Assembly (NCBI GenBank): GCA_009773165.1
Contig: WOUZ01000006.1
Coordinates: forward strand, 62,001 to 126,000
Length of the DNA: 64,000 nt
Direction of reading: 5' to 3'
From: Bacteroidota bacterium
GTDB lineage: Bacteria; Bacteroidota; Bacteroidia; Bacteroidales; F082
Both the position numbers and the translations under genes were made by a program. The notes under the pieces are model-generated. The model worked only from the letters and a program-made list of their open reading frames with translations. It was not told where the DNA came from and ran no database searches. Of this stretch, positions 9,509 to 21,493 are shown one piece after another (positions within the stretch are counted from its first letter, which is position 1; each line of letters starts with the position of its first letter).

Positions 9509-10660
9509 CTACTCTTCATCCGGCAATTTCTCTGGTCGTGCAAAAGCCGGATTAGTCAAAAAACCGGCATCGTGAAGTGTTTGAATAAAAGCCTTCAGGT
9601 CGGTTTTTTGTGAAGGCGTCAGCTGTACCCCACCACGTAATACGTGATGCATCAGCGGGTTGATTTCATTTGATTGAACAACGTAATGGGAGTAAAAATC
9701 AATTACTTCATCTAATGTTGCGAAACGTCCATCGTGCATAAAAGGGCCATTTAATGAAACATTTCGAAGGCTTGGAGCTTTATAAGCTCCTTTGTCCATG
9801 GCATTACCACTAACTACAAAACGATCCATCGCATCTGTAAAAACAGTATCTTTACCATTGTTATAAAACAAATGCGTTGTAAACAACGGGTTTCCGCCAC
9901 CTCCATGGCAATGAAAACAATCTGCACCTTCTTCTGTTGTAAACAACACATAACCATTCAGTTCTGAAGAAGTTAATTGTTGCTCACCTCTCAAAAAACG
10001 ATCAAAAGGAGCGTCTGCTGAAACAAGAGTCCGAACAAACTGCGCTATTGCCCTTTCAATATTTTTGAAGGTAACAACCTCACTACCAAATGCTTTATAA
10101 AACAATTCAGGATACCCTTTCAATCCCTGAAAAACTGTTTTTACCTGTGATGTGTCTCCGTTTATTTCGTCTTCAGCAAGTACTGCCAGGCGTACAAAAT
10201 CTTCAATGTTACGCATAGCTGGATTTTCATTTTCCGGATACAAAAATCCATTCCACCCATATCCGCTGTGATTCCATACCAAATTTACCAAAGGGAGCAT
10301 CACATGGTGCGTTTGCTGTCCATTCAGTCCGTGAACAAAGCCACCTTCAAACACAGGATGATCGATACCTGCTTCAAAATTATTGGCCTGTATATGACAG
10401 GTGGCACAACTCATCAGCGAATCTGAATGTTGACGACCACTTAATCGACCGTCATAAAAGAGGTAACGACCCAAAAGAATACCTTCTTCAGTGAGTGGAT
10501 TGTCAGCAGGAATATTCAGTTGGGTAGGAAAGCCAAAAGGAATAGGCAGATCATAAAGTGTTGGTTCATAAACTGGTGTTTCTGTTTTTGGTTGACATGA
10601 GAAAACCGAAAACATCAATACTACAACAAAAATCTTCAATAGAAAGACTGGTTTTATCAC
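9509..10660 (-). CDS. MbnH/MauG-like di-haem cytochrome c peroxidase
   Basis: A 383-residue lipoprotein (lipobox VFSC, Cys 22) of the di-haem cytochrome c peroxidase/MauG family. Two haem-binding CxxCH motifs are visible: CATCH at about residue 86 in the N-terminal domain and CFHCH at about residue 251 in the C-terminal one. Other family features are 'MRNIEDFVRLAVLAEDE', 'AFGSEVVTFKNIERAIAQFVRTL', and 'YKAPSLRNVSLNGPFMHDGRF'. It overlaps the upstream gene by four bases (ATGA), i.e. tight translational coupling. Because that neighbour is a MbnP-type protein, this enzyme is better read as MbnH-like, which modifies MbnP, than as an H2O2 scavenger. That functional choice is an inference from context. 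Confidence 0.85.
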   Translation of the reverse strand: MIKPVFLLKIFVVVLMFSVFSCQPKTETPVYEPTLYDLPIPFGFPTQLNIPADNPLTEEGILLGRYLFYDGRLSGRQHSDSLMSCATCHIQANNFEAGIDHPVFEGGFVHGLNGQQTHHVMLPLVNLVWNHSGYGWNGFLYPENENPAMRNIEDFVRLAVLAEDEINGDTSQVKTVFQGLKGYPELFYKAFGSEVVTFKNIERAIAQFVRTLVSADAPFDRFLRGEQQLTSSELNGYVLFTTEEGADCFHCHGGGGNPLFTTHLFYNNGKDTVFTDAMDRFVVSGNAMDKGAYKAPSLRNVSLNGPFMHDGRFATLDEVIDFYSHYVVQSNEINPLMHHVLRGGVQLTPSQKTDLKAFIQTLHDAGFLTNPAFARPEKLPDEE

Positions 10661-11526
10661 TGTCCCTGCTGTTTCAGTTCAAAAACATTCCTGCCGTTGT
10701 TGCATGCTTGTTGCATTGCGGGTTGCTGCTGCATGATACTTCCCCCCCATTTGTTGTGATCGTATATATGGGCTCCGTTAAACCATTTTTCAATCTTCAT
10801 CACCAGGGTCACCTCCGAAGTTTTTTCTTTGTAGATGGTAATGTCCTGATCGAATTTTACATCGAAATAGTTTTGGATAAAACCAATAACAGGCATGGTT
10901 TTTCTTGGTGGTTTATAACCCTCGCAATGACTTGAAGGACAACAAGCTTCCATATCAACATAACTGGCTTTTAAGGCCGTGCTGTCATAAATTTGTCCGA
11001 TGCCTATATGGAAATTGAACGGCTCAGCGACCTCCGAGGGGTTTATCCATTTGCCATTAAGTTTCATGTAATGATATCCACCACCGAGATAATCAGGCCA
11101 AAACATGAATGATTCGGGTGGATTGACAAAACGTAAAGATTTGTTTTTTGCTTCATTAATTCCAAAAGTAAATGATAATCCAGTGTAATTACCTTCAGGG
11201 ATTTTCGTTGCCGGATTAATTTTTAGGCTGAAAGGTATATCTGTATCGATATAATAAATGCCATCTTCAGGTTCTATTAGAAAGGTTGTTCCATCGCTTT
11301 TATGCAGTTGAATATCAGAAATGAACCACTGAATTTCAGAAATCATATAGTTGTTTCCAGCCTCATTTTTATACACAAACTGATCAGTCACAAGTATATT
11401 TCCAAACACAGTGTGATCAATGGCGATGGATAACTGGCCTTGGGCAGGCGTTTCCTTCTCTGTCTTTGTGTTGCAACCGACCAACGACAACAAAACGAAA
11501 GTAATAATAACGATATATGATCTCAT
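10657..11526 (-). CDS. MbnP-like copper-associated lipoprotein
   Basis: A 289-residue lipoprotein (lipobox LVGC, Cys 18). The body matches the MbnP family (partner proteins of MbnH): 'EIQWFISDIQLHKSDG', 'EGNYTGLSFTFGINEA', and 'PPESFMFWPDYLGGGYHYMKLNGKW', followed by 'FNFHIGIGQ'. In characterised systems MbnH converts a tryptophan of MbnP into kynurenine, which creates a copper site; tryptophans are present in the conserved positions here. There is a ...EACCPSSHCEGY insertion (about residues 193-204) that could bind metal or form disulfides. It is the first gene of a two-gene operon with the di-haem enzyme. Confidence 0.8.
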   Translation of the reverse strand: MRSYIVIITFVLLSLVGCNTKTEKETPAQGQLSIAIDHTVFGNILVTDQFVYKNEAGNNYMISEIQWFISDIQLHKSDGTTFLIEPEDGIYYIDTDIPFSLKINPATKIPEGNYTGLSFTFGINEAKNKSLRFVNPPESFMFWPDYLGGGYHYMKLNGKWINPSEVAEPFNFHIGIGQIYDSTALKASYVDMEACCPSSHCEGYKPPRKTMPVIGFIQNYFDVKFDQDITIYKEKTSEVTLVMKIEKWFNGAHIYDHNKWGGSIMQQQPAMQQACNNGRNVFELKQQGQ

Positions 11527-15021: not shown

Positions 15022-15045
15022 CGTTATGCAAATATATGCATATCG
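15022..15045. promoter_or_regulatory. ModE-box-like operator
   Basis: CGTTATGCA, six bases, then TGCATATCG: an inverted repeat with nine-base arms that match at eight positions. The form CGnTAT...ATAnCG with a six-base spacer resembles the ModE recognition element as I remember it. It lies directly upstream of the -7 box of the ModE-type gene, so the product of that gene is the natural binding protein. Confidence 0.65.
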
Positions 15046-15055
15046 CAAGAATTAT

Positions 15056-15063
15056 TACTTTTG
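15056..15063 (+). promoter_or_regulatory. -7 promoter element of the modE-type operon (TACTTTTG)
   Basis: TAnnTTTG match, 14 bases before the ATG at 15078 and 10 bases after the ModE-box-like repeat. There is no TTTG -33 box; its place is taken by the operator. This supports 15078 as the start, not the ATG at 15036. Confidence 0.6.
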
Positions 15064-15077
15064 CCAAAAATAGCTTT

Positions 15078-15458
15078 ATGGATACTCCGCCGCGTCCGAC
15101 ACGCACCGACGTTTTTCTTAACTATAAAATATGGTTATCAGGTCTTACAGGCAATGGCCAGATTCAGCCTGAGGCTTTTAGTCTGCTTGAAAATATTCGT
15201 AATTCAGGCACATTGAAAGCTGCTGCTGACGCTGCTGACATGAGTTATCGGAAAGCATGGGGGATAATCACCGATGCGGAGGAAATTTTGGGATATTCCT
15301 TGCTCGAAAAACACCGGGGCGGGAAAGATGGCGGTAATTCAACTGTGACGCCAGCTGCCATAAAATTGCTGGAAGCATATCAGGCTCTGCAACAGCGCTT
15401 TGATGAAAGTGTTGAGAAAGCTTTCGAAGAATTTGTTCAACGGGTAAACAAACAATAA
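15078..15458 (+). CDS. ModE-type winged-helix regulator (DNA-binding domain only)
   Basis: A 126-residue protein corresponding to the N-terminal DNA-binding domain of ModE. The helix-turn-helix reads 'LLENIRNSGTLKAAADAADMSYRKAWGIITDAEEILGYSLLEKHRGGKDGGNSTVT', which is the classical ModE/LysR-like recognition segment. The molybdate-binding TOBE/Mop domains of full-length ModE (about 260 residues) are absent. It may therefore sense the metal through a partner or not at all. It is one base from the binding-protein gene and has a ModE-like operator just upstream, so it probably regulates this operon. Confidence 0.88.
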   Translation: MDTPPRPTRTDVFLNYKIWLSGLTGNGQIQPEAFSLLENIRNSGTLKAAADAADMSYRKAWGIITDAEEILGYSLLEKHRGGKDGGNSTVTPAAIKLLEAYQALQQRFDESVEKAFEEFVQRVNKQ

Positions 15459-15459
15459 A

Positions 15460-16413
15460 ATGGGCAGAAAAATCCTTGTTTTATTTCTTCTGGCTGGACT
15501 TTTTTCATGTCAGCCAAAAAAGCAAACAAGACAAGTTATTATATTTCATGCCGGTAGTCTGAGTTATCCTATAAAAGCTGCTATTCAAACCTTTAACCAA
15601 CAGTTTCCTGAGATAACCATCATAACAGAAGCTGCTGGTTCAGTTGCTTCTGCACGAAAAATTACAGAACTTAACAGAAAAGCTGATATAATGGCTTCAG
15701 CTGATTATCAAATTATTGATCAACTGCTAATACCACAACATGCCTCATTTAACATCCATTTTGTAACCAATAGCATCGGTCTTGCATACACCAAAAAATC
15801 ACATTTCGCTGATAGCATTCAATCGAATAACTGGAGGGAAATTCTTCGCAATGAGCATGTTAAGGTAGGTGCATCTGATCCCGATGCCGACCCTTGCGGC
15901 TACCGAACCCGCATGATTTGGCAATTAACTGCGCTAATGTACAATGACAGCAGCCTGAAAAATGATCTACTTGCAGAGAACAAATACTATCAGCGTCCTA
16001 AAGAAACCGACCTGATAGCTTTATTGGAAACCAACAGCGTCGATTACATCTTCATATACAAAAGTGTAGCCATTCAGCATCACCTCGACTTCATTGAATT
16101 AGGTGATTCATTAAATTTAGCTAATCCTGATTTAAATAATTGGTATTCAAATGTTTCAGAAAATATCAGAGGCACTGAACCCGGGACTTTTTCAACTCTT
16201 CAGGCAGAGGCAATAACCTATGGAATAACAATGTTAAATGATTCACCAAATCAAAAAGATGCCACCCTTTTTCTTAACTGGCTGCTTAGTGAAGATAATG
16301 GTCTTAAAGTTTTAGAGGAAAATGGTCTTATTCCATTAAAACCCTCACGAATTCGATTTGTCAAATCTTATCCTGAAAATCTCAAAATCAATAATCCAAT
16401 ACTACTTAATTAA
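15460..16413 (+). CDS. wtpA: tungstate/molybdate-binding lipoprotein (WtpA-type)
   Basis: A 317-residue solute-binding lipoprotein (lipobox LFSC, Cys 17). The mature N-terminus 'IIFHAGSLSYPIKAAIQTFNQQFP' and 'EAAGSVASARKITELNRKADIMASADY' are the WtpA/ModA-type oxyanion pocket (Ser and the AGS/GSV loops), followed by 'KVGASDPDADPCGYRTRMIWQL' and 'VDYIFIYKSVAIQHHLDFIELG'. WtpA-type proteins bind tungstate very tightly and also molybdate. The permease and ATPase genes normally found beside it are missing in this window. The gene is packed between the ModE-type regulator (one-base gap) and the aldehyde dehydrogenase (five-base gap). Confidence 0.87.
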   Translation: MGRKILVLFLLAGLFSCQPKKQTRQVIIFHAGSLSYPIKAAIQTFNQQFPEITIITEAAGSVASARKITELNRKADIMASADYQIIDQLLIPQHASFNIHFVTNSIGLAYTKKSHFADSIQSNNWREILRNEHVKVGASDPDADPCGYRTRMIWQLTALMYNDSSLKNDLLAENKYYQRPKETDLIALLETNSVDYIFIYKSVAIQHHLDFIELGDSLNLANPDLNNWYSNVSENIRGTEPGTFSTLQAEAITYGITMLNDSPNQKDATLFLNWLLSEDNGLKVLEENGLIPLKPSRIRFVKSYPENLKINNPILLN

Positions 16414-16418
16414 CTATC

Positions 16419-17975
16419 ATGAAAACAATTTGTCCAACATGCGATATCAAACCGGCTCTTGATCGTCTTGGTATCAAAGAAATCAATCACGGTGCAAGTA
16501 CCGGAAGTCAATGGATCGAAACCAACGGAGAATTACTGCATAGCATAGCATCGTGTGATGGCAATCTCATAGCAAGTGTACGTCAAGGCACTTGGGATGA
16601 TTATGAAACCATCATGGAAAATGCACAGGAAGCATTTAAAGTTTGGCGTATGATTCCAGCACCACAGCGTGGCGAGATCGTCCGTCAGATGGGAAATGAA
16701 TTCCGCCGTCATAAGGAAGATCTTGGGCGGCTTGTAAGCTACGAAATGGGTAAGATTTATCAGGAAGGTCTTGGCGAAGTGCAGGAAATGATTGATATTG
16801 CCGACTTTGCGCTTGGTATTTCACGACAGCTTTATGGCTCAACGATGCATAGCGAACGTGTAAAGCACAGGATGTATGACCAATATCACCCACTTGGAGT
16901 GATTGGAGTCATCACTGCCTTTAATTTTCCTGTAGCGGTTTGGGCATGGAATGCAATGTTAGCACTTGTTACAGGAAATGTGGTCATTTGGAAACCATCT
17001 TCAAAAGTGCCGCTTTGTGCTGTTGCCATTCACAACATCATTGCTGGTGTACTAAAGCAAAATAATGTACCTGAAGGAGTTACCAATTTGATTATTGGCA
17101 GTTCGAAACATATCGGTGATAATTTTCTTGCTGACAAACGTGTACCATTAATCTCATGTACAGGAAGTGTGGCCGTTGGACGCAGAGTTGGCCGGATTGT
17201 TGGTGAACGCCTTGGCCGCACTTTACTTGAATTAGGTGGCAATAACGCAATTGTCATTTCTGATAAAGCAAACCTTGATATGGCATTGATGGCAACCGTT
17301 TTTGGAGCAGTCGGCACTGCCGGACAACGCTGCACTACGACTCGCCGACTCATTATTCACGAATCAGTTTATGATGCTTTTAAAGAAAAATTGACAAATG
17401 CTTACAAGCAGATACGCATAGGTTGCCCGTTGGATCCCAACACCCTTGTCGGTCCACTCATTGATAAAGGATCGGTTGAAGCCTTCGTTTATGCCCAGGA
17501 ACAACTCCTTAAAGAAGGTGGAAAAATCATCTATGGTGGGGAAGTCTTATCAGGAAAAGGATATGAATCAGGATGTTATGTTGTCCCGGTACTAGCCGAA
17601 GCCGAAAACCATTACCATATAGTCCAGGAGGAAACCTTTGCTCCAATTCTTTACCTCATGAAATACAGCACTATAGAAGAGGCTGTTGCACTGCATAATG
17701 GTGTACCTCAGGGTCTTTCATCTGCAATTTTCAGTACTGATCTATTGGAAGCAGAACGCTTCCTTTCACATGAAGGTTCGGATTGTGGCATTGCCAATGT
17801 AAACATCGGAACTTCAGGAGCTGAGATCGGCGGTGCTTTTGGCGGTGAAAAAGATACAGGTGGCGGACGTGAATCAGGTTCAGATGCATGGAAAGTATAT
17901 ATGCGCCGTCAAACCAACACCATTAACTACAGTACAGAACTACCATTCGCACAAGGCATTAAGTTCGTTCTTTAG
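16419..17975 (+). CDS. ALDH7-type aldehyde dehydrogenase
   Basis: A 518-residue NAD(P)-dependent aldehyde dehydrogenase most like the ALDH7 (antiquitin, alpha-aminoadipic semialdehyde dehydrogenase) group: conserved 'GVIGVITAFNFPVAVWAWNAMLAL', 'VIWKPSSKVPL', 'SCTGSVAVGRRV', general base Glu in 'LLELGGNNAIV' and catalytic Cys in 'GTAGQRCTTTRRLI'. No signal peptide; cytosolic. ALDH7 enzymes oxidise the lysine-catabolism semialdehyde and also a range of other aldehydes. It is the last gene of the modE-wtpA operon and is followed by a strong terminator, so it should be regulated with molybdate/tungstate genes, an unusual pairing. Confidence 0.92.
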   Translation: MKTICPTCDIKPALDRLGIKEINHGASTGSQWIETNGELLHSIASCDGNLIASVRQGTWDDYETIMENAQEAFKVWRMIPAPQRGEIVRQMGNEFRRHKEDLGRLVSYEMGKIYQEGLGEVQEMIDIADFALGISRQLYGSTMHSERVKHRMYDQYHPLGVIGVITAFNFPVAVWAWNAMLALVTGNVVIWKPSSKVPLCAVAIHNIIAGVLKQNNVPEGVTNLIIGSSKHIGDNFLADKRVPLISCTGSVAVGRRVGRIVGERLGRTLLELGGNNAIVISDKANLDMALMATVFGAVGTAGQRCTTTRRLIIHESVYDAFKEKLTNAYKQIRIGCPLDPNTLVGPLIDKGSVEAFVYAQEQLLKEGGKIIYGGEVLSGKGYESGCYVVPVLAEAENHYHIVQEETFAPILYLMKYSTIEEAVALHNGVPQGLSSAIFSTDLLEAERFLSHEGSDCGIANVNIGTSGAEIGGAFGGEKDTGGGRESGSDAWKVYMRRQTNTINYSTELPFAQGIKFVL

Positions 17976-17990
17976 TAAATTCTAACAATC

Positions 17991-18038
17991 AAAAACCGGT
18001 CATCAAAGGAAAGATTTCTTTTGATGACCGGTTTTTTT
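17991..18038. terminator. bidirectional intrinsic terminator
   Basis: A long perfect stem (AAAACCGGTCATCAAA / TTTGATGACCGGTTTT) with a short loop, flanked by A and T runs. It lies between two convergent genes (ALDH ending 17975, thiolase ending 18050) and can serve both strands. Confidence 0.9.
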
Positions 18039-18049
18039 ATTAATAATTA

Positions 18050-19285
18050 CTATGCCTTTTTGTACACGATAGCAACCACTGTCACATCGTCGCCTCCCAT
18101 GTTAATACTCAAGCCATAAGGACGATCAGGGTTCAGGTTGATCTGAGTTTTTCCGGCTTTTCCAGTAAGCTGCTGCCAGATTGTAACAGCTTGATGCACA
18201 CCGGTTCCACCAGTAGGATGACCCCAGCCGATAAGACCGCCGGTGGTATTCATAGGGATGATTCCATCACGTGAAGTATTACCCTCTGCAACAAAAGCTG
18301 CGCCTTTACCAGGCTCTGCAAGGCCAAGTGCTTCAACAGCGAGAATTCCTGCAATACTGAAACAATCATGTACCTCAGCAGTTCCAACCTGGTCAATGGA
18401 AATACCAGCTAATTCAAGCGCTTTGGCTGCTGTCTTCTTTATAGTGGTCATCTCCAAAGGGTTGGGAGGATCATTAGTGATATTTCGGGTGAGCTGAGCA
18501 TAGCTGACAATCTCAACAGCATCCTCCATGCCGATGCCCAATTTGTCAAGTCCTTCTTCAGAAGCAATAATAATAGCCGATGCTCCGTCTGATACTTTAG
18601 AACAGTCATAAAGATTCAAGTGGTCAACAAAGTACTTACCATTGGGAAGCGCGTTATTATATAGTCCATCAAGGTCGGCTACCTGATTATGAAATTCCTG
18701 GGCAGTCGGATCGAGACGGGCATTTTCAATAGCATTACGAAACCAGCGACCAAGACCTTTACGGGCATAATCGAAACCATATTTCTCGTAATATACTCCA
18801 GCACGATCAGAAAACTGGCCTGGAAAAAAATAGGCGTGACCTTGTTTCCGCTTCTTAAACCAGCCTGCACTTGCCAGCACATCAGCGCCGTAAATAGCCT
18901 TCATAGTGTTTTGAACCTCGACACCCAATGCCAAAGTAACATCTGCACTTTCGGCAAGTACCGAACGTATTGCAGAAACGAGCGACAACCCACCTGATCC
19001 ACAAGCACCTTCTACGCTAAGTGATGGTTTAAATTCAAGCTTAGGGTCAATAGTTGCTGCAAAACCACCCAAATGCCCTTGCTTGTTGTAACGACCTGCC
19101 ATGAAATTTCCAATAAAGATTTCATCAATATTTTCAGCATCATTGATTTGTCCTACAACAGCCTGACCAGCTTCTTTTATATATTCCTCTAAACCAGCAC
19201 GTTCTTTTCTTGGATTAAACTCTTTCCGACCTGTTCCCATGGAAATGGTGTTGGCCCCTGCAGTCATAAATATTCTTTTTCTCAT
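18050..19285 (-). CDS. thiolase-family acyl-CoA acetyltransferase
   Basis: A 411-residue thiolase-superfamily enzyme. The nucleophilic cysteine lies in 'SVEGACGSGGLS' (about residue 94), and the active-site histidine motif is GGLIGWGHPTGGTG near the C-terminus, with 'AEVHDCFSIAGILAVEALGL' resembling the second conserved block of SCP-X-type thiolases. It would cleave 3-ketoacyl-CoA with CoA in the last step of beta-oxidation. It is the third gene of the hydratase-dehydrogenase-thiolase operon, 20 bases after the dehydrogenase. Chain-length specificity cannot be seen. Confidence 0.87.
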   Translation of the reverse strand: MRKRIFMTAGANTISMGTGRKEFNPRKERAGLEEYIKEAGQAVVGQINDAENIDEIFIGNFMAGRYNKQGHLGGFAATIDPKLEFKPSLSVEGACGSGGLSLVSAIRSVLAESADVTLALGVEVQNTMKAIYGADVLASAGWFKKRKQGHAYFFPGQFSDRAGVYYEKYGFDYARKGLGRWFRNAIENARLDPTAQEFHNQVADLDGLYNNALPNGKYFVDHLNLYDCSKVSDGASAIIIASEEGLDKLGIGMEDAVEIVSYAQLTRNITNDPPNPLEMTTIKKTAAKALELAGISIDQVGTAEVHDCFSIAGILAVEALGLAEPGKGAAFVAEGNTSRDGIIPMNTTGGLIGWGHPTGGTGVHQAVTIWQQLTGKAGKTQINLNPDRPYGLSINMGGDDVTVVAIVYKKA

Positions 19286-19305
19286 TGCAAAAGATTGTTA
19301 TTCTG

Positions 19306-20643
19306 TTAATTAAAATAAGAATTGATTGGACCATAAGCGTGGAAAAATCCTGTCAGCATAACTGTATTTACATCTGCTTCACTGTTTGCAACTCCATCAG
19401 CAACCAATTTCCGGCCAATGGCATCTGAATTTTTTCCGTAATCCATTGCCAACTTTGAGCCAGCAGTATTCATGTTTTCTACCGCTACAAAATATGCTGT
19501 AAAATGGTTTTCTTTGTCGCTAAGTCTAACAGCAGATTTCCAGGGTTTAAACTCCTGAGGCATTGCACCCAAAAACGCATCACATTTGCTTGAAAATGAA
19601 GCCGTGTCCACGTAATCACCTTTTGACGGATCATAAACGGCAACAACAGCACCTTTTTCGTATTTCAGAAAACCATTCTTTTGCGCCCCGCTGGGAAATT
19701 GTCCTCCTTTAACACCCAAAGTCATCATCTGATCCAACAAATCACTATGCAGATCCTCATCTTTTAAGAAAGGATTCATCACGTTCATTATAAACTGAAC
19801 TACATCAACACCAACATAATCAATAAGTTGAAAAATTCCCATGGGTCGAACGAGGTAATCCTGGCTCACTTTATTGACAATATAAACCGCCTCGGCAAAA
19901 GTCGTTTCCTTTGAAAGCTCCAGTGCCTTGTTAATGCCATAAAGAGCATCACGCATGAAATGTCCGTTGCCTATAAAACCGGCGAAGTCATTGCTTGGGA
20001 CAACAACTTTCTTTAAAGCTTTGGCATAATCGAGCGCAAATTGCTTTGTTTCAGGAAGTGTCTCTTTCGTTACAATTAGTTCAACCAAACGCTGTATTGC
20101 TGGAGGATTATAAAAGTGAAATCCAAGGACTCTTCCTTGTAATCCGGCTTCAGATTCAATAAGGTTAATTGGCACTGAAGAAGTATTGGTAAAAAACCAG
20201 GGCTTATTTGGGTTATTTGAATCTATTTGTTGCAAAAGCTTCACTTTGAGAGCTTTATTTTCCGACACAGCCTCAAAAACAAGATGTGATCTGTAGGAAG
20301 TCTCCATCGCCGTGGTTGGTCTTACAATTCTCATTGCATCTTCGACATACTGATCTATAATGTCGCTATTATCAATCAAATCAGCTCTATCGGCATACAT
20401 CTGACGCAACCAAATAGTTTTTTTCTCAGCAATTTTGAGAATTTGAATATGTAAATAGTCAACCAAACCAGCCAGACCTTCATCAGAAAGGTCGATGGCA
20501 TTGAGCACAAATGTTTTTCCCTTATTCTCAGGTTTGAGGCTTAAATCAGTCATTTCGACTGCGGTGAGTAATAATATTCCACTACCCATTTTGCCAGCAG
20601 CACCAAGCACTGCTACCTGCTGAAGTCTTTCATCGTAATTCAT
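19306..20643 (-). CDS. 3-hydroxyacyl-CoA dehydrogenase family protein
   Basis: A 445-residue NAD-dependent 3-hydroxyacyl-CoA dehydrogenase. The N-terminus has the Rossmann dinucleotide loop 'VAVLGAAGKMGSGILLL', followed by 'HLVFEAVSENKALKVKLLQQID', 'FFTNTSSVPI' and 'GRVLGFHFYNPPAIQRLVELI' (family signature). The C-terminal half carries the dimerisation domain with 'DFAGFIGNGHFMRDALYGINKALEL'. I chose the ATG at 20643 because a start at 20679 would overlap the upstream gene by ten bases and add 12 residues that do not fit. It forms an operon with the enoyl-CoA hydratase upstream and the thiolase downstream. Confidence 0.9.
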   Translation of the reverse strand: MNYDERLQQVAVLGAAGKMGSGILLLTAVEMTDLSLKPENKGKTFVLNAIDLSDEGLAGLVDYLHIQILKIAEKKTIWLRQMYADRADLIDNSDIIDQYVEDAMRIVRPTTAMETSYRSHLVFEAVSENKALKVKLLQQIDSNNPNKPWFFTNTSSVPINLIESEAGLQGRVLGFHFYNPPAIQRLVELIVTKETLPETKQFALDYAKALKKVVVPSNDFAGFIGNGHFMRDALYGINKALELSKETTFAEAVYIVNKVSQDYLVRPMGIFQLIDYVGVDVVQFIMNVMNPFLKDEDLHSDLLDQMMTLGVKGGQFPSGAQKNGFLKYEKGAVVAVYDPSKGDYVDTASFSSKCDAFLGAMPQEFKPWKSAVRLSDKENHFTAYFVAVENMNTAGSKLAMDYGKNSDAIGRKLVADGVANSEADVNTVMLTGFFHAYGPINSYFN

Positions 20644-20669
20644 ATCTATTTTATTATGATTTTTAAAAG

Positions 20670-21446
20670 TTAATTCCATTGTGGAGTTCGTTTCTCAAGA
20701 AACGCCTTCATTCCTTCCTCACCTTCAGAGCCGGGACCGAATAGCGAGCCGAAATGCACCGCTTCAAGCTCGCTACCTTCACCAAAACTGCTGTTAAGTC
20801 CCTGACGGGTGACCATTTTGATTTTTCTTACTGCCTGCGGACCTTTTGCAGTAATCTGACGAGCCAGACGCAGCGTTTCTTCCATTAGCATTTCAGGTTC
20901 GCACACCTTTTGCACCAAACCAATCCTTAAAGCGTCATCAGCCCCAATGATTTCAGCTGTTGTAAGCAGATAAAGAGCATCGGCAAGTCCAACCAATCGT
21001 GGTAATCGTTGTGAACCCGCATAACCTGTTATCAATCCAAGGTTAACCTCTGGCTGCCCGAACTTTGCTTTTGAGGATGCGATCCGAAAATCGCAGGCCA
21101 TTGCCAGTTCTAAACCACCCCCAAGGGCAAAACCATTAATAGCGGCAATGACCGGAAAAGGAAGATTTCCAAGAGCGTCGAAAGTGCGCTGTCCAAGCCG
21201 ACCAAAATCACTGCCTTCTTCTGCAGATTTATGAACCATTTCGGCAATATCAGCACCTGCAACAAAGGCCTTTCCTGCCCCTGTAAGGATCATTGCCCTT
21301 ATGGAATTATCAGCTGCCAAAGAAGCAATCAAATGATTCATCTCCTCAAAAAAAGCTGTATTCAGGGCATTTAATGCCTGTGGTCGGGAAATAGTAACAA
21401 TAGCGATACCGTTCTCGGTAACGGGTTGAAGAATGTTGTACGTCAT
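20670..21446 (-). CDS. enoyl-CoA hydratase/isomerase family protein
   Basis: A 258-residue crotonase-superfamily enzyme: 'ITISRPQALNALNTAFFEEMNHLI' (actual residues begin VTISRPQALNALN), oxyanion loops 'AGKAFVAGADIAEM' and 'GFALGGGLELAMACDFRIAS', and 'GQPEVNLGLITGYAGSQRLPRLVG' with the usual catalytic Glu. It hydrates trans-2-enoyl-CoA. The start at 21446 is chosen because the predicted transcription start of the promoter at 21465-21493 lies at about 21458, downstream of the alternative start at 21467. First gene of the beta-oxidation operon. Confidence 0.9.
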   Translation of the reverse strand: MTYNILQPVTENGIAIVTISRPQALNALNTAFFEEMNHLIASLAADNSIRAMILTGAGKAFVAGADIAEMVHKSAEEGSDFGRLGQRTFDALGNLPFPVIAAINGFALGGGLELAMACDFRIASSKAKFGQPEVNLGLITGYAGSQRLPRLVGLADALYLLTTAEIIGADDALRIGLVQKVCEPEMLMEETLRLARQITAKGPQAVRKIKMVTRQGLNSSFGEGSELEAVHFGSLFGPGSEGEEGMKAFLEKRTPQWN

Positions 21447-21464
21447 AGTGAATAATTTTATGCC

Positions 21465-21493
21465 CAAATGTAGTCATTTTTCTTTTTTGCAAA
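21465..21493 (-). promoter_or_regulatory. Bacteroidota-type promoter of the beta-oxidation operon
   Basis: On the minus strand TTTG (complement of 21490-21493), a 17-base spacer, then TACATTTG (complement of 21465-21472). An almost ideal -33/-7 pair located 18 bases before the start codon. Confidence 0.8.

Follow-up and report, generated by a model that had tools for sequence, protein, structure and literature searches.

A ModE-type operon and a possible tungsten-responsive swap between an aldehyde oxidoreductase and an aldehyde dehydrogenase in Bacteroidales

Why should a metal-free aldehyde dehydrogenase (ALDH) share an operon with a ModE-type regulator and a tungstate-binding protein, with no transporter genes beside them? 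The question is raised by the modE-wtpA-ALDH operon in a 64,000-nucleotide stretch of an uncultured Bacteroidales bacterium (Bacteroidota; contig WOUZ01000006.1, positions 62,001 to 126,000), here called the window. A preliminary description of the window had suggested that the cell relies on a tungsten- or molybdenum-dependent aldehyde oxidoreductase (AOR) when the metal is present and, under ModE control, on the ALDH when it is scarce. In this study, 100 genomes were searched for these genes, with presence sets and coordinates compiled by hand from the search results. The operon probably represents the low-metal side of a switch by which ModE would exchange AOR for the metal-free ALDH. For a fuller version, a tungsten-responsive swap in which a one-domain ModE represses its own operon and activates a distant AOR, while relatives that have lost their tungsten genes keep the ALDH in place, the arguments are about evenly balanced.

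All three genes lie on the plus strand with intergenic gaps of 1 and 5 bases, as originally described, and profile searches confirmed the assignment of the binding protein to the WtpA type and of the dehydrogenase to the ALDH7 type (Table 1). The mechanical open reading frame (ORF) of modE begins at 15036, and its start was set to 15078, the equivalent of the starts of its homologues. The product scores 75.7 bits (E 2e-21) against the TIGR00637 ModE domain, which is below the cut-off of 98.5, and resembles the solved structures 2ijl (E 1.5e-11) and 1b9m (E. coli ModE; E 8e-9). A domain search of its 126 amino acids (aa) found no match to a C-terminal MOP/TOBE domain, the protein stopping after the helix-turn-helix (HTH); because only the HTH is present, the regulator is classed from its sequence as a ModE-like single-domain protein rather than a full ModE. 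The window WtpA scores above the TIGR03730 cut-off (285.6 bits against 242.75) and matches the archaeal structures 2onk, 3cfz and 3cg3 with E values of 9e-62 to 2e-60. Its Asp144 and Glu182 align with an Asp and a Glu of 2onk, which we take to be the carboxylate ligands of the octahedral oxyanion (Asp153 and Glu218 of A. fulgidus ModA/WtpA, matching the 2onk residues with an inferred offset of 28). The ALDH scores 787.5 bits against the NF050084 profile for L-piperidine-6-carboxylate dehydrogenase (cut-off 730), and matches the ALDH7/antiquitin-type structures 2jg7, 4x0t and 2j6l with E values below 1e-150; its GQRCT and ELGGNN motifs, presumably those of the catalytic Cys and Glu, align with the solved relatives. 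By profile score the enzyme is an L-piperidine-6-carboxylate dehydrogenase, with predicted activity on piperideine-6-carboxylate (P6C) / alpha-aminoadipic semialdehyde. An intrinsic terminator between the ALDH gene and a convergent thiolase gene ends the operon.

Table 1. Coordinates of the operon features (positions in the window) and of the transporter genes on contig C29 of the same genome (positions in locus L042)
Feature	Position	Strand	Description
Palindrome CGTTATGCAAATATATGCATATCG	15022-15045	.	Predicted ModE operator; 24 bp, ends 32 bp before modE start
TACTTTTG	15056-15063	+	Predicted -7 promoter element, TAnnTTTG, 10 bp after palindrome
modE	15078-15458	+	Single-domain ModE-type regulator, 126 aa, HTH only
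wtpA	15460-16413	+	Tungstate/molybdate-binding protein, 317 aa, lipoprotein-like N-terminus (signal judged by eye)
ALDH	16419-17975	+	ALDH7-type dehydrogenase, L-piperidine-6-carboxylate / alpha-aminoadipic semialdehyde dehydrogenase family, 518 aa
Intrinsic terminator	17991-18036	.	21-bp stem then T's, -29.9 kcal/mol, z -8.1
WtpB-type permease	L042 8882-9685 (C29)		Best match WtpB, 233 bits against cut-off 340
WtpC-type ATPase	L042 9672-10727 (C29)		Best match WtpC, 343 bits against cut-off 440; TOBE domain

The palindrome upstream of modE links the operon to an AOR gene elsewhere in the genome. The pattern CGNTATGCA-N6-TGCATANCG, which was derived from the modE site, has its sole zero-mismatch place in the 4.38-Mb genome at that site, and its only one-mismatch place is upstream of the larger of two AOR genes. 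Allowing up to three mismatches gave 15 places, compared to four for a reversed control; the 13 remaining places have two or three mismatches, and the five of them that were inspected are not counted as operators because they all lie inside reading frames. A degenerate pattern designed after the sites were already known (CGWTATGNA-N5-7-TNCATAWYG) occurs at three places in the genome (modE, the larger AOR and the neighbourhood of a second ModE-like gene on contig C16) and at none in the control. Across the comparative set, a box scoring at least 14 (of 18) precedes 33 of the 38 AORs and 23 of the 29 modE genes, compared to 1.2% and 0.9% of first-order shuffled controls for AOR and modE upstream regions, respectively. 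Every one of the 55 six-spaced sites has G at position 7 and C at position 18, and all 12 modE-wtpA-ALDH operons with an intact modE retain the box. The AORs without a good box are those of G075, G086, G091, G097 and G098. Of these five genomes, G075 alone has a ModE at the threshold applied, while G086 and G098 show a weak match (AOR box versus ModE, Fisher 0.004). These counts exclude the duplicate loci L065, L066 and L122-L126. The AOR upstream regions come from 38 of 42 genomes, with G003, G015 and G039 (partial genes) and G013 (contig end) left out, and the modE set comprises 29 genes, with G075, G083, G085 and G092 outside it and G005, missed by the ORF caller, added for the promoter geometry.

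The position of the box relative to the promoter differs between the two kinds of target. The -7 element of Bacteroidetes is given as TAnnTTTG in PMC7366714. Among genes with a box score of at least 14, this element starts 10-12 bp after the box in 11 of 12 modE-wtpA-ALDH operons (in the exception, G011, the last letter differs), 12 bp before the box in all 12 AOR-linked modE genes of other genera, and 40-44 bp after the box in 31 of 33 AOR genes. In the first arrangement the box would cover the -33 region and in the second the start region, both of which suit repression, while in the third the core promoter would lie downstream of the box, an arrangement suited to activation. The box positions therefore suggest that a single regulator represses the modE operon and activates AOR, with the palindrome as the operator to which ModE is predicted to bind.

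An AOR elsewhere in the genome, which the switch presupposes, was found: the genome encodes two AOR-family proteins, one of 600 aa and a larger one, whose gene lies on contig C2 and whose searched sequence has 718 aa. Both match AFOR_N and AFOR_C above the cut-offs and belong by domain content to the tungsten-type aldehyde ferredoxin oxidoreductase family, with tungsten content and aldehyde oxidation predicted. The best solved relative of the larger AOR is 1aor (E 1e-53). This larger type (69% identity or more) is present in 42 of the 100 genomes. The 600-aa AOR (L044 9129-11598, on contig C2 of the window genome, G000) lies beside a 4Fe-4S protein gene, and its relatives (frames of about 600-640 aa) occur in several related genomes. 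A ThiF-type adenylyltransferase gene (L043 10480-11082) is divergent from the larger AOR, as it is in G011, G016 and G033; it may be involved in cofactor or sulfur-carrier chemistry and may share an operator with the larger AOR.

ModE and the larger AOR also occur together. A ModE-like match (E 1e-10) was found in 37 of the 100 genomes, and the larger AOR in 35 of these 37 compared to 7 of the 63 others (Fisher 1e-17, kinship ignored). Of the two ModE-positive genomes without the larger AOR, G016 has an AOR remnant and a modE interrupted by a stop, and G090 has a weak ModE match (38% identity over 98 residues, E 2e-13); the 37 also include the weak matches of G086 and G098, both with AOR. The modE and AOR genes lie within 3.3 kb of each other in 16 genomes and within 0.8 kb in 13, and the order AOR-modE-wtpA-ALDH was observed in G011, G026 and G038, with two small genes behind AOR in G026. 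The three-gene order itself proved to be conserved, being kept in 13 of the 100 genomes and in four genera (the modE of one, G016, has a stop), which exceeds chance; in these operons ALDH starts within about 25 bases of the end of wtpA or overlaps it. The clade of the window ALDH is associated with the larger AOR (13 of 16 genomes against 29 of 84, p 7e-4). A hand-made tally of the 17 genomes of the four operon genera, in which numbers are small, gave 13 with both larger AOR and ALDH, three with ALDH only, one with AOR only (G004) and none with neither. Other-clade ALDH7 genes (66-67% identity) were seen near wtpA in two more distant Bacteroidales, directly downstream in L011 (1625-4307) and on the opposite strand two genes away in L012 (4493-8876).

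Natural losses were found among the relatives. In G001 and G002, both of the window's genus (completeness 96% and 84%), searches at E 1e-10 for ModE and WtpA and at 1e-30 for WtpB and AOR gave no match for ModE, WtpA, WtpB or any AOR. Both retain an ALDH that belongs to the clade of the window ALDH, with identities of 81% and 90%, respectively. As in the window, the retained gene is flanked by lacZ, which is adjacent in G002 and separated by a few small genes in G001; on its other flank, G001 has the thiolase and 3-hydroxyacyl-CoA dehydrogenase genes of the window and G002 reaches the contig end. No box was seen by eye within 300 bases upstream of either ALDH. In G016 the ALDH is intact, whereas the larger AOR is reduced to a broken remnant and modE is interrupted by a stop; this is a partial case because the genome retains WtpA, WtpB and a 600-aa-type AOR. 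In a tree of 18 ALDHs, 10 of the 15 inner branches are open, so that the tree does not separate a single loss of the tungsten genes in G001 and G002 from two losses.

The absence of transporter genes noted in the preliminary description holds for the neighbourhood of the operon but not for the genome, where WtpB/WtpC-type genes lie on contig C29. Exactly one ModB-type permease was matched in the genome, its gene overlapping the ATPase gene directly behind it (Table 1), and a genome search with the window WtpA found no WtpA relative other than itself. In G011, G016, G029, G041 and G051, wtpB is 2.4-4.9 kb beyond ALDH (4.0-6.4 kb from wtpA), behind genes that by eye resemble those of a peptidase and a transporter; on the same contig, its distance beyond ALDH is 18 kb in G005 and 65 kb in G038. 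Because wtpBC follows ALDH so closely in five relatives, it is well supported that the orphan wtpA is part of a split transporter and serves WtpB/WtpC encoded elsewhere, which also sustains the suggested partnership with a distant permease. A plasmid search for WtpA returned distant matches only (26 records, all below 60% identity). Behind wtpBC, split-transporter genomes encode a small protein of about 145 aa that looks membrane-like (L042 10790-11227; same place in L115-L121 and L123-L126), with open frames of 144-166 aa and, for the window-genome copy, no Pfam match.

These observations can be combined into a metal-dependent switch. When tungsten (or molybdenum) is supplied, ModE would occupy the palindrome over its own promoter and silence modE, wtpA and the metal-free ALDH, while the same metal signal would cause ModE at the palindrome upstream of the larger AOR on C2 to turn on this tungsten-type enzyme. 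When the metal is scarce, repression of modE-wtpA-ALDH would be lifted and AOR production would stop; the extra WtpA would feed the WtpB/WtpC permease encoded elsewhere, and the NAD(P)-type ALDH would be produced. To the computed features (gene identities, split transporter, palindrome with its fixed positions, ModE-AOR co-occurrence and ALDH retention after AOR loss) the switch adds that tungsten or molybdenum would be the signal of ModE and that the ALDH would perform the job otherwise done by AOR.

Several results weigh against this switch. The ModE-like regulator has no MOP domain to account for metal sensing, and molybdenum stays a possible signal because the genome holds two more frames of the molybdopterin family, of 760 and 1239 aa (the former, at G000:C1:390604-391857, matches the molybdopterin oxidoreductase family), so the AORs may not be its sole molybdenum/tungsten (Mo/W)-type enzymes. 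The 600-aa AOR is absent from the degenerate-pattern matches, and a box score of at least 14 was found in only 2 of 21 WtpB upstream regions, leaving the WtpB/C promoters without a box. A good box is missing from six of the 29 modE genes, namely that of G064, the broken G016 copy and four that stand alone in genus g6. G075 has ModE, yet its AOR lacks a good box, whereas G004, G042, G071 and G081 have an AOR box and no detected ModE. It is also doubtful that the substrates of AOR and ALDH overlap, because the ALDH passes the curated cut-off of a substrate-specific enzyme, and no lysine 6-aminotransferase scored over its cut-off as a source of P6C. Taken as a whole, ALDH7 shows no association with the larger AOR, which was found in 23 of 54 genomes with ALDH7 and 19 of 46 without (p = 1). 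Of the swap as originally proposed, the regulatory part is supported, in that the palindromes are placed as expected if modE-wtpA-ALDH is repressed and the larger AOR activated; the idea that both enzymes oxidise the same aldehyde found no support.

There are several potential alternative explanations for the operon. It is possible, though rather unlikely, that the ModE regulon is real in its autorepression, WtpA and AOR activation, and that the ALDH rides along as a passenger. Its gene would then have been inserted between wtpA and wtpBC and be transcribed from the shared promoter, while the enzyme does unrelated work such as amino-acid catabolism. The independence of ALDH7 overall from AOR would agree with this, as would the persistence of the ALDH in G001 and G002, where the metal system is gone, and the location of wtpBC 2.4-4.9 kb past ALDH behind other genes in five genomes is what an insertion would leave. 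However, a passenger would not be expected to hold its place in the gene order across 13 genomes and four genera, with a start that overlaps wtpA or follows its end by no more than about 25 bases, nor to stay behind a box retained in 12 of 12 operons with an intact modE; the hand tally, with its small numbers, likewise found none of 17 genomes lacking both the larger AOR and the ALDH.

A role in lysine breakdown, in which the ALDH would turn piperideine-6-carboxylate into alpha-aminoadipate, neighbouring enoyl-CoA hydratase, hydroxyacyl-CoA dehydrogenase and thiolase would complete the chain and metal control would be secondary, appears improbable. The ALDH does score above the NF050084 cut-off, and convergent thiolase and 3-hydroxyacyl-CoA dehydrogenase genes are present in the window, G001, G007 and G008, but beta-oxidation genes do not adjoin the operon in other genera. 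The route via lysine 6-aminotransferase was set aside, as no match above the TIGR03251 cut-off was obtained in any of the 13 genomes, a result that lacks a positive control (none of the 14 control genomes passed the cut-off either) and leaves aside other lysine routes, which were not searched. The separation of wtpA from wtpBC and a ModE without its own metal domain might also be read as signs that the orphan WtpA is a tungstate sensor for ModE or another partner rather than part of a transporter, as the preliminary description had offered as an option. This is very improbable, given that the single ModB-type permease and its ATPase best match WtpB and WtpC (below the cut-offs), that the window WtpA is the only one found in the genome, and that WtpA (33 of 100 genomes) and WtpB (33 of 100) occur together in 32 of the 34 genomes having either. 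Moreover, wtpA and wtpB are directly adjacent at 7 of 24 loci compared and one gene apart at three more, and WtpA looks by eye like an exported lipoprotein, away from a cytoplasmic regulator. A stand-alone sensor role was set aside after the WtpB/C-type genes were found, and nothing obtained here speaks for it.

Some components of the proposed switch are of kinds already known. E. coli ModE follows a dual repressor/activator logic, and the regulon described here resembles the E. coli type in its ModE-type HTH, in a same-spacing dyad with CGNTAT and ATANCG ends, and in having sites before regulator/binding-protein genes and before a Mo/W-type enzyme. In contrast, the window regulator is without MOP domains, the targets are a tungsten-type AOR and an ALDH, and the inner half-sites are TGCA-like rather than TATA-like as in E. 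coli. Compared to the ModE site CGNTATATA-N6-TATATANCG, the site near the targets is a related dyad with the same ends and spacing and a different inner half-site, to which binding is predicted; the E. coli-type box is given as ATCGNTATATA-N6-TATATANCGAT (PMC545781). A ModE with a DNA-binding domain only is known from Desulfovibrio, where PMC545781 calls the sensing mechanism unclear, gives the predicted site as CGGTCACG-N14-CGTGACCG and names mod operons as targets, unlike the site and targets here. Cofactor-responsive isozyme swaps, such as a Ni-repressed Fe hydrogenase and a B12-independent ribonucleotide reductase, are also treated in PMC545781; they share with the proposed switch a cofactor-independent enzyme that is repressed when the cofactor is present, and differ in that here the cofactor is tungsten/molybdenum, AOR and ALDH form the pair, and the regulator and a metal-binding protein are encoded together with the replacement. 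Aromatoleum aromaticum has a phenylacetaldehyde dehydrogenase that carries out the same step as its tungsten AOR, and deletion of the dehydrogenase led to five-fold higher AOR activity, with no ModE link or tungstate-binding-protein operon described in the corresponding parts of PMC6365974. The transporter resembles WtpABC in that WtpA is over its curated cut-off and WtpB and WtpC are the best matches, and differs in that wtpA is split from wtpBC and the latter two score under their curated cut-offs. While isozyme swaps driven by cofactors, ModE regulons and single-domain ModE proteins are thus already known as kinds from the passages of PMC545781 cited here, the combination of a ModE-type operator common to AOR and ALDH in contrasting promoter positions, with the ALDH in a regulator/tungstate-binding operon, looks new. 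No ModE-controlled AOR/ALDH switch was described in the titles and opening abstracts met in a literature search.

Three further gene neighbourhoods were noted. A row of thiolase, 3-hydroxyacyl-CoA dehydrogenase (457 aa) and enoyl-CoA hydratase genes is convergent with ALDH (window 18050-21467), and the first two hold the same place in G001, G007 and G008. At window 9509-11526, a gene for a di-haem cytochrome c peroxidase (MauG-type) lies beside a gene for an MbnP-domain lipoprotein-like product, a pairing that is presumably linked to copper handling. The second ModE-like gene on C16 (L129, G000:C16:24500-28500; 29% identity to the window ModE) is next to a TonB-dependent receptor gene and divergent from a gene whose product has about 358 aa (assumed start) and gave no Pfam match. 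The palindrome there (L129 1402-1424) has a spacing of 5 with the start of the latter gene directly behind, and the locus is possibly a second Mo/W uptake locus.

In our judgement, the regulation of tungsten-enzyme use in anaerobes seems little described. In the portion of a 2026 classification paper (PMC13328260) consulted here, no word starts with 'regulat', and one passage has an enzyme upregulated. The conserved operator in two contrasting promoter positions predicts opposite responses of ALDH and AOR to tungstate. The system is suited to the question of how a ModE without metal-binding domains would sense metal, and the related species without tungsten genes are natural controls.

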